Origin: Candidatus Polarisedimenticolia bacterium
GTDB lineage: Bacteria > Acidobacteriota > Polarisedimenticolia > Gp22-AA2 > AA152
Direction of reading: 5' to 3'
Length of the DNA: 64,000 nucleotides
Assembly (NCBI GenBank): GCA_036004685.1
Contig: DASYRE010000031.1
Span: 1-64,000 of the forward strand
This document shows, piece by piece, positions 49,274-60,490 of the stretch. Numbering within the stretch: the first letter of the stretch is position 1; each line of letters begins with the position of its first letter. Below the pieces are notes generated by a model. The model ran no database searches. It was not told the origin of the DNA and saw only the letters and a program-made list of their open reading frames with translations. The translations under genes and the position numbers were made by a program.

Positions 49274-49418
49274 CATATCCGCCATCGTCCTGGTTGGCAG
49301 AAAGTTTCCAACCCTATGACCGTCACGGGCACTTTATAAGATGAGCGCTGGCTGCGTTGCGCCGGAGTGGGAAAGGATGCAGGCTCTTGCCGACCGCGTT
49401 CAGGAGAAGGCAACGGCG

Positions 49419-49934
49419 ATGGTCGACCTGCTGGGCGAGGCGCAGCGCGGGGAGGTGGCCGCCTTCGAGGCGCTGTACCGGCGCCACGTGGGACGGGTGC
49501 ACGGCCTCTGCCGGCGGCTGTCCCGCGACGCGGTGCGGGCGGAGGAGCTGACCCAGGAGGTTTTCCTGCGCGCCTGGAGACACCTCGGCGCGTGCGGAGA
49601 CGATCGGCCTTTCGAGGCGTGGCTTTGCCGGATCGCCATCCACGTCGTCCTGGCGGACAACCGGTCCTTCAGGCGGCGCTTTCGGAGGGAAGCGGTGACC
49701 CAGGACGGAATTCTGCCGGAGGTCGGAGCCGCGGCCGCGCCCGCCGGCCTGGCGCTGGATCTCGATCGGGCGATCGAGAAGCTTCCGCCCGGCGCCCGGC
49801 AGGTCTTCGTGCTGCACGACGTCGAAGGGTTCCGGCACGAGGAGATCGGGAAGTTCCTGGGACTTTCCGCCGGCACCTCGAAAGCCCAGCTCCACCGGGC
49901 CCGCCGGCTGCTCAGGGAGGCGCTCGGATCATGA
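49419..49934 (+). CDS. ECF RNA polymerase sigma factor
   Basis: 171 residues from ATG 49419, which has GGAGAAGG in front and begins as the family does (MVDLLGEAQRGEVAAFEALY); an in-frame ATG at 49341 would add 26 residues. Region 2: LYRRHVGRVHGLCRRL, ELTQEVFLRAWRHL. Region 4: LPPGARQVFVLHDVEGFRHEEIGKFLG, then TSKAQLHRARRLLRE. It overlaps the next gene by ATGA. The promoter it reads could not be fixed; CGTCA near 49320 is a candidate -10 of its own gene. This is a different sigma lineage from the one at 8.1 kb. Confidence 0.88.
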   Translation: MVDLLGEAQRGEVAAFEALYRRHVGRVHGLCRRLSRDAVRAEELTQEVFLRAWRHLGACGDDRPFEAWLCRIAIHVVLADNRSFRRRFRREAVTQDGILPEVGAAAAPAGLALDLDRAIEKLPPGARQVFVLHDVEGFRHEEIGKFLGLSAGTSKAQLHRARRLLREALGS

Positions 49935-51462: not shown

Positions 51463-53634
51463 ATGGAGCCCCGCCGGAGTCCGGCGGCCGTCCCGAGACA
51501 GGAACGTGGCGTGGAAACCGGAACCACCCTCAAGCATTACCGCATCCTCTCCCTTCTCGGCGAAGGAGGGATGGGCGCGGTCTATCGCGCCGAGGACACC
51601 CGCCTCGGGCGCGAAGTCGCGCTCAAGGTCCTCCGGCCGGACCTGACCGCCAGCGCCGAACGGCTGGCGCGCTTCGAGCGCGAGGCCCGGGCCGCCTCCG
51701 CCGTGAGCCATCCGGGCGTCGCCACCCTCTTCGACATCCATCACGAAGGCGAGACGATCTTCCTGGCGATGGAATACGTCGAGGGGAAGACGCTGCGGGA
51801 GCTCCTGCTCGGCGGGCGCCTGCCCCTGCCTCAGGTGATCGACTGCGCGGCGCAGGTGAGCGAGGCGCTGAGCGCCGCCCACCGCAAGGGGATCATCCAT
51901 CGCGACCTGAAGCCCGAGAACGTCATGGCGGCCGACTCCGGCTTCTACAAGATCCTCGACTTCGGCCTGGCCCGGATGGCGCTGCGCGAGGATTCGGGGG
52001 CCGGCCCGATGGCGCAGCTCACCCAGGCGCTGACGCTTTCGCGCAACCTCTCGAGCGAGGGGCAGGTCTCCGGAACGCTCGCCTACATGAGCCCCGAGCA
52101 GATCCAGGGAGAAGCGATCGACGCGCGCAGCGATCTTTTCTCTTTCGGGACTCTCCTTTACGAGCTGGCGACGGGCGTCTCGCCGTTCCGGGGAAAGAAC
52201 CTCCTTGCCACGTTCCACGCGATCGTCCACGAGCAACCTCCTTCAATCGGCTCGCTGCGGCCCGACGCGCCCCCGGAGCTGGACCGGATCGCGGCCCGGT
52301 GCCTCGCCAAAGATCCGCGCGACCGTTATCAGACGGCGGCCGATCTGGCGCTCGACCTCCGGACCCTGAAACGCGACAGCGATTCGGGGAGCTGGCGGCA
52401 GCCTTCGCCGGCGGTTTCGCAGGGGGCCGCGACCGCGGCCGTCCGCCCCGGCCGGCCCAGCCACTGGATCCGCAACGCGTCAATCGTCGCGGGGGGCGCC
52501 GCGTTGATCCTGGCGAGCCTCTTCATCTACCGGCCGCGCGGGCCGGAGCCGGAGATCGAGGCGGGACTCTTGCCGGGGCCTCCGTCTCGCGCCTCTCTGG
52601 CGCCCGCGGATCGATCCCGGATCGCCGTGACGCCCTTCGCCAACCGGAGCGGCGACCCGCGCGTCGACTGGCTGAGCCAGGGGCTTCCGGAGATGCTCAC
52701 CACCGATCTGGCCCGGGTCCCGGGTCTCCAGGTGATCTCCAGCCAGCGGCTCGCCGACCTCCTCTCCGCCGCCGGCAAGGGAGAGGTGAAAGATCTGGAC
52801 CAAAGCGCCAGGACGCAGCTCGGCCGCTACGCCGGCGCCGGCGTCGTCGTCAACGGCAGCATCTTCAAGACGGAGGGAGGCTATCGGGTCGACGTGCAGG
52901 CCTACGACACCGCCACGGGCCAGGTCGTCACGGCCCACCGGGCCGAAGGGAAGGAAATCTTCAAGATCGCCGATGAGCTGGGAACGGCCTTGAAGAAGGG
53001 GCTGCAAGTCGGCGGTCCGAAGGAGGCGAGCTTCCCGACCGTCGCGACCTCCTCACCCGACGCCTATCGGCTCTTCAGCGAAGGGATGAAGTTCTACCAG
53101 GGGACGAAGTTTCCGGAGGCGGCGGATGCGTTCCGCCGATCGCTCGCGGCCGATCCCGACTTCGCGCCGTCCCAGCTCCGGCTGGGGATGAGCCTGATGC
53201 TTTCCGGAAAGCGGGAAGAGGGAGTGCGATGGATAGGCCGCGCGGCCACCCAGGGTGACAAGCTTCCGGAGCGCGACCTGATTCTCTCGGAGGCGATCCA
53301 ATCGGCGTTCCATGAGCAAAAAGACCCGAAGGCCCCGGCGCTCCTGGAAAAGCTGACCGAACGCTATCCGAACGATCCGGAATCTCTCTTCTGGCAGGCG
53401 GAGCTTCGTTCCGCCCAGGAAGGAAGCCGGTTCGAGGCGATCCGGATCCTGCATCAGGCGGTCGATCAGGACCCCAACGACGCGCTGGCTGTCTCCGCGC
53501 TCGTCCGCCATCTCAAGGAGCTGGGCCTCGAAAAGGACGCCGCCGCGATCCTCGCGGATTTCCAGAAGCGCACGACGCAGGCGGGCGCGCTTCCCACCCC
53601 GCCGCCCTCGGTCGCCCCCCCTTCGGTTCCCTGA
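51463..53634 (+). CDS. Serine/threonine kinase with TolB-like and TPR regions
   Basis: 723 residues from ATG 51463; GTG 51511, behind AGGA, gives the usual family start and is an alternative. Kinase domain about 25-290: GEGGMGAVYRAED, VALKVL, HRDLKPEN, DFGLARM and YMSPEQIQG, all catalytic residues present. One transmembrane helix near 345-360. The outer part differs from the propeller kinases: first a TolB/FlgO-like domain (RIAVTPFANRSGDPRVDW, GAGVVVNGSIFKTEG), then TPR-like helices (AYRLFSEGMKFYQGTKFPEA, ADAFRRSLAADPDFAPSQ) suited to protein contacts. It follows the sigma operon by 54 bases but has no overlap. Confidence 0.9.
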   Translation: MEPRRSPAAVPRQERGVETGTTLKHYRILSLLGEGGMGAVYRAEDTRLGREVALKVLRPDLTASAERLARFEREARAASAVSHPGVATLFDIHHEGETIFLAMEYVEGKTLRELLLGGRLPLPQVIDCAAQVSEALSAAHRKGIIHRDLKPENVMAADSGFYKILDFGLARMALREDSGAGPMAQLTQALTLSRNLSSEGQVSGTLAYMSPEQIQGEAIDARSDLFSFGTLLYELATGVSPFRGKNLLATFHAIVHEQPPSIGSLRPDAPPELDRIAARCLAKDPRDRYQTAADLALDLRTLKRDSDSGSWRQPSPAVSQGAATAAVRPGRPSHWIRNASIVAGGAALILASLFIYRPRGPEPEIEAGLLPGPPSRASLAPADRSRIAVTPFANRSGDPRVDWLSQGLPEMLTTDLARVPGLQVISSQRLADLLSAAGKGEVKDLDQSARTQLGRYAGAGVVVNGSIFKTEGGYRVDVQAYDTATGQVVTAHRAEGKEIFKIADELGTALKKGLQVGGPKEASFPTVATSSPDAYRLFSEGMKFYQGTKFPEAADAFRRSLAADPDFAPSQLRLGMSLMLSGKREEGVRWIGRAATQGDKLPERDLILSEAIQSAFHEQKDPKAPALLEKLTERYPNDPESLFWQAELRSAQEGSRFEAIRILHQAVDQDPNDALAVSALVRHLKELGLEKDAAAILADFQKRTTQAGALPTPPPSVAPPSVP

Positions 53635-53653: not shown

Positions 53654-54313
53654 TCAGGATGTCGGATGAGCCGAGAGGGCGGCGCGCAGAGCGTCGGCGG
53701 CCTCGACGACGGTGCAGCCGGAAAAGCTGGGGCGTGGCGGATCCTCCTCCCAGCGCGCGCCGGGAGGAAAGGCGAAGACGCAATCCCAGATGACGGCGTC
53801 CGCGTCGAGCTCCTCGCCGTGGAGGAGGAAGCCCTTGTTCTCCCGGGCGTTTTTCACGAGGAGGCTGGAAAGCAGCCGCGACTTGTCGTAGTACTGCGTG
53901 ACGCGGGGATCGGGGATTCGGGAGAGGACCCGGTTGATCGGCGGCGCGACGTCGCTGACGATCACCGGCTCCCAGACGACGAAGACGCGGACGTCCTTCT
54001 CCTTCACCTGCCCGAGAACGTCTTGAAGCGCGGAGGCCCCCCGCACGCAGGTGGCTCACGTCGGGGACAGCAGCGCGAGGACCCGCCGATCGCCGGCGGC
54101 GCCGTTGAAGCGCTCCCGGAACTCGGCCAGGTTCTTCGCGCTCAGCTCCAGAAGCGGCGGCTGGCCTTCGGGCGTCGTCCGCGGCCCCAGCATCTCGTAC
54201 GCCGCGATGGCGAGGACGAGCAACAGGACGGCCGCGATCCCGATCGCCGCCCGCTTCAGCACCACGCGCGCCCTCGGACCGGTCATTCCGATTGTCTCCC
54301 ACGGAGCCGTCAT
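53654..54313 (-). CDS. Thioredoxin-like UxxC selenoprotein (in-frame TGA = Sec86)
   Basis: 219 codons with one in-frame TGA at 54058-54056. Upstream part: membrane anchor (about 20-40), then FNGAAGDRRVLALLSPT. The TGA follows, then ATCVRGASALQDVL. Reading TGA as selenocysteine gives SPT-U-ATC, a UxxC redox motif where this thioredoxin-like family has CxxC. The frame goes on without break: VRVFVVWEPVI, DPRVTQYYD, VIWDCVFAFPPGARWEEDPP, a full thioredoxin-like fold. A stem-loop fitting a bacterial SECIS lies directly behind the TGA. The start may instead be ATG 54286 (GGGAG before it). Alternative: a recent nonsense mutation of Cys. selA/selB/selC are not in the window. Confidence 0.7.
54005..54053 (-). 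promoter_or_regulatory. SECIS-like stem-loop after the TGA codon
   Basis: On the minus strand, two bases after TGA, CACCTGC (54053-54047) can pair with GCAGGTG (54011-54005). Inside is a hairpin GTGCGGG / TCCGCGC (7 pairs including G-U) with loop GGGCC (54039-54035). The loop begins 16 bases after TGA and opens with G, as expected for bacterial SECIS elements. Folding was judged by eye. Confidence 0.5.
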
Positions 54314-54526
54314 TTCGGCAAACCACCTTATAGATCACCCGGACTCGGCTCACAAGTACGGGTCCGATCCTTGTGGCGCCGTCACGGCGCCGACGCGTGA
54401 AAGCGCCACCCTGCAATATGCAATCGCCTACGGTGACAGGAGATGAAGCCGACCAAGGCCGAACCAAACGCCGCCGTCACGGTTTCTTGTAGCCAATGCG
54501 CAAGTCTTCCTTTTGACTCGTGATAT

Positions 54527-56164
54527 TCAGGGACAGGGGGATGGATTGGGACGCGGTTGACCGGCGGAGATGACGCCTAGAGACCCTTCGCCGCAGACGT
54601 TGCTTCCCGAGACGAGGTAGTAATAGGCGAAGCCGGCGGGCGGCAACGAACTGTCGGTCGCCCCGGGAGAAAGGAGTCCCGGCGCGAGGCAAATGTGATT
54701 GAAGCTCCACGCGCCGACGATGAATCCGATGTAGAGGTTGTAGGAGTCGACGCCCGGCGAGGATGACCAGGAGAGGGTCTGGCTGTCGACGAAGACGAGA
54801 TTGGTCGCGACCTCGAGCGGCGGATTGCACGGGCCGCACGCATCGCCCCGCCCGTCACCGTTCGCGTCGAGCTGATCCGGATTGAAGAGAGAACAGTTGT
54901 CGCAGGCATCTCCGACGCCGTCCCCGTCGGCATCCATCTGCGCGGGATTGTAGACGGTGGCACAGTTGTCGGTGGGGAGGAACCGGCCATCGCCGTCGTC
55001 GTCCGCGTCCAGATAAAGAAGATAGTAGGAGTCCTCCGCAAGGCAGCCTGAGCCCGCGCAGGACCCCTGGACGCTTGCGGAATGGTCTCCCGCCGCCAGC
55101 GTCATGCTCAAGAACGGGTCCGGGCTCGAGGCGTTCGTTCCGGCGGGGCCGCTCGGGTCGTGGAACTTCAGGGTGCCCTGGAGCAACGAGGCCAGGTCCT
55201 GGCGGGCGTCGAGATCGGCCTGCACGGTTCTTCCAGCGGGGAGGAAGAACCGGAAGTGATCGACGTCCGCCGAGGGGCTCACGACGCCGCTGACCGCTCG
55301 CGGGAGCAGGATCGGAGCTCCGTTGCCGAAGGCGTCGTCGTCCGAAGCCGGTCCGAGGCTCACCGACATTTGATAGAAGGTGTTGGAAGTGCCCACGAAG
55401 CTGCGCAGCTCGCGCACCAGAATCGTGTAAACCCCGTCGGCGGGAAGCGTCGTCTGGAGGAAGGGATCGTTCGGATCGGACGCGGTGTAGGCGTCCTGGG
55501 CGAGGAGGGCCCGGCCCGGATCGAAGATTGTCAGGACGATCTTGGCCGCGGGCTGGTCCGGATTGAAAACCGCCGAATCGATGTCGACGGTCAGGACCTG
55601 GCCGGCCACACCGGCCACGCCGTAGTAATCGAGATCCCCGGGGGGATTGATCAGCGCGTCGATCGAGGGAAGGACCGGAGGCAGGATCGGCGTCGCGGTC
55701 TCGAAGGCGTCGTTCGGGCCGATCTCCAGGGAGAGAACGTAGAGATACGCCGGCCCGCCGGCGGAAGGGTCGAGGTCCCGGACCGCGACGAAGTACTTGT
55801 CGGAGCGGGAGGCTTGGAATGCCACGCTCGGGTCGTCGAAATCTCCCTGGGATTGGTCCTGAGCGAGGACGGTCGTCCCGTCGGTGTCGAGAATCTGCAG
55901 AACCGCGGAGAGCGCGGAGCCGGGCGCCGAAGTGGCCCGGAAGCCGCGGGCCAGGATGTCCGCCTGGATCGTCTGCCCCGCCTCCAGCCTGATCGCGTAG
56001 AGATCAACGTCCCCCGGCGTCCCGATCGTCCCGCCGACGCTCGCCGGCGGCGCGACGGGCTGGGCCGCAGAGGCCGGATCGTCCGGCTCTTTCTCCCGGC
56101 GTAGATCCGCCGACGCAGGAAACGCGATCCAGACTGCGAGCAACCCGAATAGGAACCGCTTCAC
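54527..56164 (-). CDS. Secreted PPC-domain and thrombospondin-3 repeat protein
   Basis: 545 residues from GTG 56164 (AGGTGAG before it). Signal peptide 1-19. Three pre-peptidase C-terminal (PPC)-like beta domains, at about 25-150, 155-275 and 280-390, show the D-V-D-x-Y/F-x-x-x-L/A-G-Q/R-T pattern ([45 protein letters not shown]). Near 395-445 come thrombospondin type 3 calcium-binding repeats ([28 protein letters not shown]). A fibronectin-like C-terminal domain with ASP/Ser-rich strands ends in NPSPCP. No peptidase domain is present, so it is a matrix or surface protein that probably binds calcium. Confidence 0.8.
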
Positions 56165-56255: not shown

Positions 56256-58232
<1,977 letters not shown>

Positions 58233-58287
58233 CGGATTTGTTCTCCAATCGGTTGTTTCCGAACCGGTGCGCAGCAAGGCAATTCCT

Positions 58288-58368: not shown

Positions 58369-60366
58369 TCACCGCAGACCTTTGTTCTTCACCAGGACCA
58401 GCATGCACGATTGGAAGTCCGCGGCTCCGGCCTTGCCCGAGATGCAGATCGTGGCGCTGGTATTGTCCGGAACGGCCGCGAGCCGCGCGGCGATGTCCTG
58501 CCGGTTGCCGTCCAGCGTGGCGCAGTCGCCGTCGCTCGGCAGGTTGAACTTGAACGTGACGTTGGCATTGGAGACGTCCCGCGCCTCCAGGTTCTCGGAG
58601 ATCCCTCGCTCGTACAGGAAGCCGAGGACCGGATCGGGACAGGGAAGCGTGGAGGGATCGGGCAGCGTCACGTCGTCGCCGGGATTGTCGGCGCTGTCGA
58701 CCCGGGAAACGTATACCTGGCTGACGGTCGAGCCGGAGATCGGCACAGGGTTCGCGGGATCGCAGACGTCCTGGAGCTTGCAGGTCATCGAGACACTCCC
58801 GCCCTGAGAGTTGAGGTTGAAAGTGGACGGACTGATGGCGCAGTCCGCCTGCACCCGGTTCTCATCAGTCAAGCCGTCGCAATCGTCGTCGACTCCGTTG
58901 CAGACTTCGGCCGTTGGGGTTCCCGGCACGCACTGCTGCGGCACTCCGCCGACGCAGGTGTCCACCGTGCGCCGGCACGCTCCCAATCCACAGGTAATCT
59001 GGCTGGTGACCGGCTGATGGACGCACCCCGACGCGGGATCGCAGCTGTCGGTCGTGCAAACGCTCTGGTCATTGCAGGAAGAGGTGATGTCGGTATGGGC
59101 GCAGCCGCCAGCAGAGCAGGAGTCGGCGGTGCACGCGTTTGCATCGTCGCAACTCAGTGGAGTGCCGCTCTGGCACGTGCCGTTGCTGCAGACGTCTCCC
59201 GCCGTGCACGCGTTCCCGTCGCTGCAGGGGCTGGTGTTGTTGACGTGTCCGGTGCAGGTGCCCGTGTCCGGCTCGCACGTATCGTCGGTGCACGGATTGC
59301 CATCGGCGCAAAAGAACTGCACTATGACACAATGCGAAAAGATGTCACACGCATCGAGCGTGCAATGGTTGCCATCGCACTCGTGAAGAATGTCTCGGCC
59401 GATCCGGTTTGTGCATCCGCCGTTCGAGGGCGAAAAGGCCTGGCAGAACCAGTCGTTGCAGCCATCGTGGGGGAAGCCGCCGCAGAGACTGTCGTCACGG
59501 ATGTGCTGGGAGCATCCAAAGCTCGGCAGACACGTGTCACGCGTGCAGGAATAGGCATCATTGCAGTTGAGCGGCACGCTGCCGCTGACGCAGTTGCCTC
59601 CGCTGCAGAAGTCCGACGTGAAGCAGAGATCGCCGTCGGAGCAGGAGCCAGTAACACTGGTCCGGACGCATTGTCCGGTAGCCGCATCGCACGAATCGCC
59701 GGTGCATACGTTGCCATCGTTGCAGTCGACGGGGGGATTGGCGCACTGCCCCGTCGCGGGATCGCATCGATCCAGCGTGCAGAGATTCCCGTCACCGCAA
59801 TCCTTCAAGGCTCCCGCGCAGATCGGGCCGCCGGCGGACCCGACGCAAATGTCGTTGGTGGTACAGAGACTCTGGTCGTCGCAAGGAGCTCCCAGGGAGC
59901 TTGGGGTCCCTACGCACGCCCCCGACAGATCGCAAGTATCTGAAGTCGTGCAGGCATTGCCGTCGTCGCAGCTCCCCCCCGGCGGCTGGCTCGTGCCCAC
60001 ACAATGGAACGTCGTTCCCGCACTGCCCTGACACGAATCGCCCTGAGTGCAGGGATTCCCGTCGCTGCACGCGCTGCCGGAGGACAGGTTGGGGTGAACG
60101 CAGAACCCCGAATTCGGGCCCGTGGAAAGGCAGCTGTCCTGCGTACACGGATTCTGATCGTCGCAGTTGAGCGGATCGTGCCGGCACGTTCCCGTGCTCG
60201 TATCGCAGGAATCGACCGTGCAGATGTTCAGGTCGTCGCAGGAAGGGCAGGTCAACTCCAAAGCGATCGGATTGTCAGCCGCAAGGGCGAATCCGCAGGC
60301 GAAAAGAACCGGGACGGCAAACGCTGGAGCAAGAAAGAGGTTGCGAAACGCAGGGTCGGCCTTCAT
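58369..60366 (-). CDS. Cys-rich secreted tandem-repeat protein, paralogue 2
   Basis: 665 residues; ATG 60366 chosen over an upstream start at 60474 because a signal peptide (about 8-30, LFLAPAFAVPVLFACGFALA) follows at once. Repeat units as in paralogue 1 (DQNPCTQDSC, DGNPCTQGDSC, DGNLCTLDRC, DGNVCTGDSC). The middle has a variable block (FGCSQHIRDDSLCGGFPHDG, NDWFCQAFSPSNGG) not shared with the others. The MopE-type motif reads VCNGVDDDCDGLTDE. The C-terminal domain is near-identical to the other copies. The intergenic region towards the next copy differs from the two hairpin-bearing ones. Confidence 0.85.
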   Translation of the reverse strand: MKADPAFRNLFLAPAFAVPVLFACGFALAADNPIALELTCPSCDDLNICTVDSCDTSTGTCRHDPLNCDDQNPCTQDSCLSTGPNSGFCVHPNLSSGSACSDGNPCTQGDSCQGSAGTTFHCVGTSQPPGGSCDDGNACTTSDTCDLSGACVGTPSSLGAPCDDQSLCTTNDICVGSAGGPICAGALKDCGDGNLCTLDRCDPATGQCANPPVDCNDGNVCTGDSCDAATGQCVRTSVTGSCSDGDLCFTSDFCSGGNCVSGSVPLNCNDAYSCTRDTCLPSFGCSQHIRDDSLCGGFPHDGCNDWFCQAFSPSNGGCTNRIGRDILHECDGNHCTLDACDIFSHCVIVQFFCADGNPCTDDTCEPDTGTCTGHVNNTSPCSDGNACTAGDVCSNGTCQSGTPLSCDDANACTADSCSAGGCAHTDITSSCNDQSVCTTDSCDPASGCVHQPVTSQITCGLGACRRTVDTCVGGVPQQCVPGTPTAEVCNGVDDDCDGLTDENRVQADCAISPSTFNLNSQGGSVSMTCKLQDVCDPANPVPISGSTVSQVYVSRVDSADNPGDDVTLPDPSTLPCPDPVLGFLYERGISENLEARDVSNANVTFKFNLPSDGDCATLDGNRQDIAARLAAVPDNTSATICISGKAGAADFQSCMLVLVKNKGLR

Positions 60367-60490
60367 GTGGATTCCCCATAAAACGAGTTGATCACCCCTT
60401 TGCAGCGCCTTTTGCCCTGCGCACCTACCACACGGCTTGGGCGCGCCGGGCATGCAGTTCCCAGGAGACGGCACTCTGCGCGATCAGTTC

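Follow-up and report, generated by a model that had tools for sequence, protein, structure and literature searches.

A predicted membrane-anchored thioredoxin-fold selenoprotein of Acidobacteriota, from a family with many members in mercury-resistance gene clusters

The closest described systems are the thioredoxin/TlpA/ResA-type oxidoreductases (PF00085, cd02966), of which UxxC selenoprotein forms are known. The protein encoded at 53654-54313 on the minus strand of the window, by which we mean the whole 64,000-nucleotide stretch analyzed here, shares with them a predicted thioredoxin fold and the U/CxxC motif at the start of the fold's first helix, and with ResA a putative N-terminal membrane anchor. 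It differs from the PF00085/cd02966 group in having no Pfam match (marginal matches occur in 3 of 29 family members), and its family has invariant residues of its own, namely W114, R137, W176-D177, and W188. Neither PF00085 nor any other redoxin model matched the protein above its cut-off. Glutathione peroxidases (GPx; PF00255) likewise combine a thioredoxin fold with an active-site Sec or Cys and appear among the Foldseek matches, but they have no sequence match to the window protein, which carries a putative resolving Cys at +3. The mercury-linked MerT/CopZ fusion selenoprotein (NF045683), the UxxU metal-binding family (NF041115), and the DF family (NF049942) represent kinds of domain to which some members of the present family are fused or beside which they are encoded. 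What their models recognize, however, is the fused HMA/MerT portion or a neighbor, not the thioredoxin-like Sec domain.

The initial annotation had described the gene as an unannotated selenoprotein, and no NCBIfam (June 2026) or Pfam model indeed matched the Sec domain of the 29 members above cut-off. LcrR and small_SPW0924 gave weak matches that fell well short of cut-off, confined for small_SPW0924 to the hydrophobic helix, and both were rejected. A May 2026 review lists 119 selenoprotein families and subfamilies, none of which was matched to the family in a comparison that covered the entries with a Pfam or NCBIfam model, as opposed to those resting on CDD domains alone (e.g. cd02966 UxxC); with this reservation, the family appears to be an uncatalogued one of a known kind. 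It is absent from the text and table of deep-Sep, and a literature search returned nothing relevant on a mer-linked selenoprotein of comparable kind.

The frame opens with an ATG at 54313, 9 nt downstream of a Shine-Dalgarno-like AAGGTGG (54323-54329, minus strand), contains one internal in-frame TGA (54058-54056), and closes with a terminal TGA that ends at 53654. The two open stretches of one frame split by a single TGA, as first described, are thus borne out; counting that TGA as Sec gives 219 codons plus a stop, and residue 86 then opens a UxxC motif (UATC). Before the TGA, GC content at the first, second, and third codon positions is 0.71, 0.53, and 0.92, and after it 0.71, 0.47, and 0.87; this agreement indicates the same coding character on both sides, again in line with the initial annotation. 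The gene is preceded on the same strand by a gene for a PPC-domain protein (54527-56164), and downstream a Ser/Thr kinase gene (51463-53634) runs toward it; no functional link is suggested by either neighbor.

AlphaFold2, run with the family alignment, returned a model with a mean pLDDT of 91.8 and a pTM of 0.84, comprising a helix at residues 13-42, a strand at 76-82, residue 86, a helix at 87-102, and further thioredoxin-fold elements. The thioredoxin-fold domain takes up the protein from roughly residue 56 onward (53657-54148, minus strand) and places U86 and C89 at the first helix of the fold, in keeping with the thioredoxin-like UxxC protein originally proposed. In Foldseek searches against the PDB, the best matches were TlpA/ResA-type proteins and glutathione peroxidases, at E-values near 1e-3, and sequence profiles reached PDB thioredoxins only marginally. 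The hydrophobic N-terminal helix (54188-54277, minus strand) is most likely an inner-membrane anchor, and the basic residues ahead of it suggest an outward-facing redox domain. We consider it very probable that the gene encodes a selenoprotein with a thioredoxin fold. With less assurance, fold and motif favor thiol/selenol-disulfide oxidoreductase chemistry, in which Sec86 would act as the nucleophile and Cys89 as the resolving residue of the U-x-x-C center.

The selenoprotein might instead act as a glutathione-peroxidase-like peroxidase, given that GPx structures are among the top Foldseek matches and that the invariant W176-D177 lies directly before strand 178-182. Judged by the order of elements, this pair would occupy the topological place of the thioredoxin cis-Pro or of the GPx Trp-Asn, which is catalytic in glutathione peroxidases. 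However, when two GPx proteins from Acidobacteriota were compared with the family by profile alignment, the result was not significant and WD did not fall opposite WN, PF00255 has no match in the family, and the strict Cys at +3 is better suited to a disulfide oxidoreductase. Membership in the GPx family was rejected as having no sequence support, and a peroxidase of this type seems improbable.

About 75 homologous loci were found in some nine phyla, most of which have TGA at the Sec codon and nearly all others Cys. Pfam and NCBIfam overlook this entire family, yet it occurs in 45 of 396 sampled Acidobacteriota genomes (Pyrinomonas methylaliphatogenes is among the same-phylum genomes with a matching contig) and in several other phyla. 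The acidobacterial scan gave 50 matches, 39 of which had at least one in-frame TGA in the matched stretch, and in the loci whose sequence was read out this TGA is the U position of the motif. A scan of a species-level genome collection, with a tighter query set biased toward members with an AWDVYLLY motif, yielded 36 loci, of which about 28 had not come up in the acidobacterial scan, labeled in their MAG titles as Acidobacteria, Zixibacteria, Chloroflexi, Eremiobacterota, Gemmatimonadetes, Armatimonadetes, Actinobacteria, Calditrichia, and Proteobacteria. A search of PLSDB for plasmid-borne copies, with a Cys form as query, returned none.

Alignment of the joined 219-residue product, a check proposed with the initial annotation, places TGA or Cys at exactly the codon for the first Cys of the CxxC motif, where the TGA had been claimed to lie. 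Across 29 aligned rows, column 86 holds only TGA or Cys, and F69, R77, P84, U/C86, C89, W114, R137, W176, D177, and W188 are invariant. Because homologues from dozens of genomes carry TGA or Cys at precisely this codon, the TGA is not a chance occurrence. Cys forms are scattered over several branches (L027; L032/L053 from Pyrinomonas; L042; L046; L054; L058), a pattern in which Sec is, judging from these sequences, the commoner form and has been replaced by Cys several times. Both motif residues are gone from L083, a Calditrichia copy.

A pseudogene or a sequencing or assembly error, whereby a Cys or other sense codon became TGA and the 3′ part was left to drift, might be suspected in a genome assembled in 62 contigs. 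Against this, dozens of independent assemblies have TGA at the same codon, and the hairpin described below is conserved only among TGA members. Close pairs of Sec members, all from elsewhere in the family than the immediate surroundings of the window's own gene, have dN/dS values mostly of 0.05-0.2, and up to 0.3, over 100 codons past the TGA; the downstream drift named at the outset as counter-evidence thus did not appear, and these pairs instead show purifying selection. We regard this explanation as very remote.

Mechanical ORF calling returned an 85-residue ORF and a 130-residue ORF, just as the initial annotation had expected standard annotation to cut the gene in two. Read literally, this output would describe an 85-residue membrane peptide and a separate 130-residue protein starting from the GTG at 54046, a proposal that is scarcely credible: the GTG falls inside the thioredoxin motif, past the resolving Cys, the Cys homologues are continuous single proteins, and the predicted fold needs both halves. 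The gene exemplifies how Sec-containing genes are systematically split in two by annotation.

Immediately 3′ of the TGA, the sequence GTGCGGGG(GGC)CTCCGCGC forms a hairpin (54028-54046, minus strand) in which an 8-bp stem pairs 54046-54039 with 54035-54028 around a 3-nt loop, GGC (54038-54036), whose first base is G. Its energy is −12.6 kcal/mol (RNAfold, 40 nt), or −11.2 in our scan. The hairpin and its G-starting loop had been noted at the outset with a distance of 16 bases from the TGA; both stand, and the distance is corrected to 17 nt. The published bSECIS constraints are a loop of 3-9 nt, a stem of 4-16 bp, a UGA distance of 16-37 nt, a G among the first two loop positions, and an MFE ≤ −7.5 (PMC13188914), and the window's hairpin lies within all of them.

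We scored hairpins by these constraints together with a simple stacking energy and set each against 200 versions of its stretch recoded with synonymous codons. Sec members (n = 50) had a mean z of −2.41 and a mean energy of −8.0, compared with +0.30 and −1.3 in Cys members (n = 6), which are without the hairpin that Sec members carry, and −0.10 and −2.2 at control sites within the same genes (n = 150); the hairpins of Sec members are stronger (Mann-Whitney p = 8e-19). In a gap-free alignment of 34 Sec members, both sides had changed in six of the eight stem pairs, with a covariation score of 0.453 versus 0.199 in shuffles, a value reached by 0 of 500, and slid structures scored much worse. Considered alone, the hairpin of the window gene is not significant against synonymous versions (p = 0.09) because the gene is GC-rich. 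In a second group of family members the best loop lies 20-23 nt past the TGA. The bacterial SECIS layout originally suggested is thus corroborated by the constraints and by covariation in Sec members, and on this evidence the predicted SECIS is the inner 8-bp hairpin. The longer 7-bp stem that had been drawn around it (54053-54047 with 54011-54005; 54005-54053, minus strand) does occur in the sequence, but relatives do not conserve it: the mean longest pairing across 57 sequences is 4.54, against 4.61 by chance. This outer helix was rejected as part of the SECIS and is probably non-functional. An Rfam search of the window gave no match.

The host genome (Acidobacteriota, 3.84 Mb, 62 contigs, 100% complete) encodes a tRNA-Sec with a tca anticodon, SelB, SelA, and SelD. 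The selA, selB, selC, and selD genes, for which a search had been recommended, are therefore all present, and the lack of Sec machinery that would have spoken against the selenoprotein was not observed. Across genomes, selA was found in 32 of 35 with a TGA-containing match, whereas among the 351 genomes that lack a homologue 208 have it (Fisher p = 8e-5, ignoring kinship); the three genomes with a TGA-containing match but no good selA match are fragmented or incomplete. The selD gene of the window's genome (G000:C8, L018) is itself Sec-containing, with a TGA within the active-site motif GGUAAK, and is thus a second gene of the host whose translation depends on UGA being decoded in this way.

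Conservation, covariation, and the presence of the machinery together point to Sec insertion in the window's organism, where the UGA at 54058-54056 would be decoded by SelB and Sec-tRNA(Sec), guided by the hairpin just 3′ of it, so that the frame 54313-53654 would yield one membrane-anchored thioredoxin-fold selenoprotein. Decoding as Trp or unspecific readthrough, to which an open frame alone is no guide since it does not reveal the inserted residue, is highly unlikely, as homologues have Cys and not Trp (barring the one copy without both residues), the Sec machinery is complete, and the SECIS is confined to Sec members. The selenoprotein reading of the window's gene is supported by the computed Sec codon, SECIS, family, and predicted fold.

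A large part of the broad family to which the gene belongs is linked to mercury resistance. Genes for MerR, MerC, MerT/MerTP, MerA, or the DF family lie near the family gene or adjoin it in 24 of 57 extended loci (window included), whereas only 2 of 43 unrelated control loci scored for mer, and both of these had been retrieved through the MerA model. Neighbors of representative loci were identified by NCBIfam as a MerR-like regulator, a MerTP fusion, MerC, ArsR, and a DF family (seleno)protein, and a Pyrinomonas neighbor matched mercury(II) reductase above that model's cut-off. Fusions were also found, to HMA/MerP-like domains in L029, L034, and L042, to a MerT-like region in L032/L053, and to a DF domain in L064.

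The window's own clade (L022-L027) forms a separate branch (support 100/99), and no mer neighbors were seen at its loci. The mer label is clustered outside this clade, requiring 11 changes versus 18.4 in shuffles (0 of 500 as low). MerA gave no match above cut-off in the window's genome, and neither did a MerT search give any, a weak result given that control genomes gave none either. On these grounds a mercury role for the window's own gene was set aside as unsupported.

In the other branches, where the mer linkage is seen computationally, the domain may act on Cys-rich carriers of Hg(II), for example MerP/MerT, by reducing or demetallating them. As a tentative reading, somewhat short of an even chance, the main branches would serve bacterial mercury resistance as a component that depends on Sec, and the window's clade would be a stand-alone form with a related role in soft-metal or redox stress. 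If the mercury reading is true, a selenol outside the membrane would reduce or demetallate MerP/MerT-type carriers or pass Hg(II) on. That family members are repeatedly linked or fused to mer genes offers these selenoproteins a function that can be put to a direct test, and connects selenium use with mercury handling in mostly uncultured bacteria.

Several further observations were made at these loci. The DF family (seleno)protein NF049942 adjoins mer-linked members (L074:1586-1900, L077:1732-2046) or is fused to one (the L064 C-terminus), which suggests a shared mercury-handling role. In Zixibacteria (L077-L081 and L069), an extra region of ~250 residues lies N-terminal to the domain. Elsewhere in the window, the minus strand carries tandem paralogues of ~680 residues each (56256-58277 and 58369-60474), rich in Cys-rich CDDGNxCTxDSC repeats (Pfam Dicty_CTDC) and nearly identical in their C-terminal parts. 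The plus strand encodes an ECF-type sigma-70 factor (49341-49934), followed by an ORF that is Cys-rich at its start and may encode the cognate anti-sigma factor.
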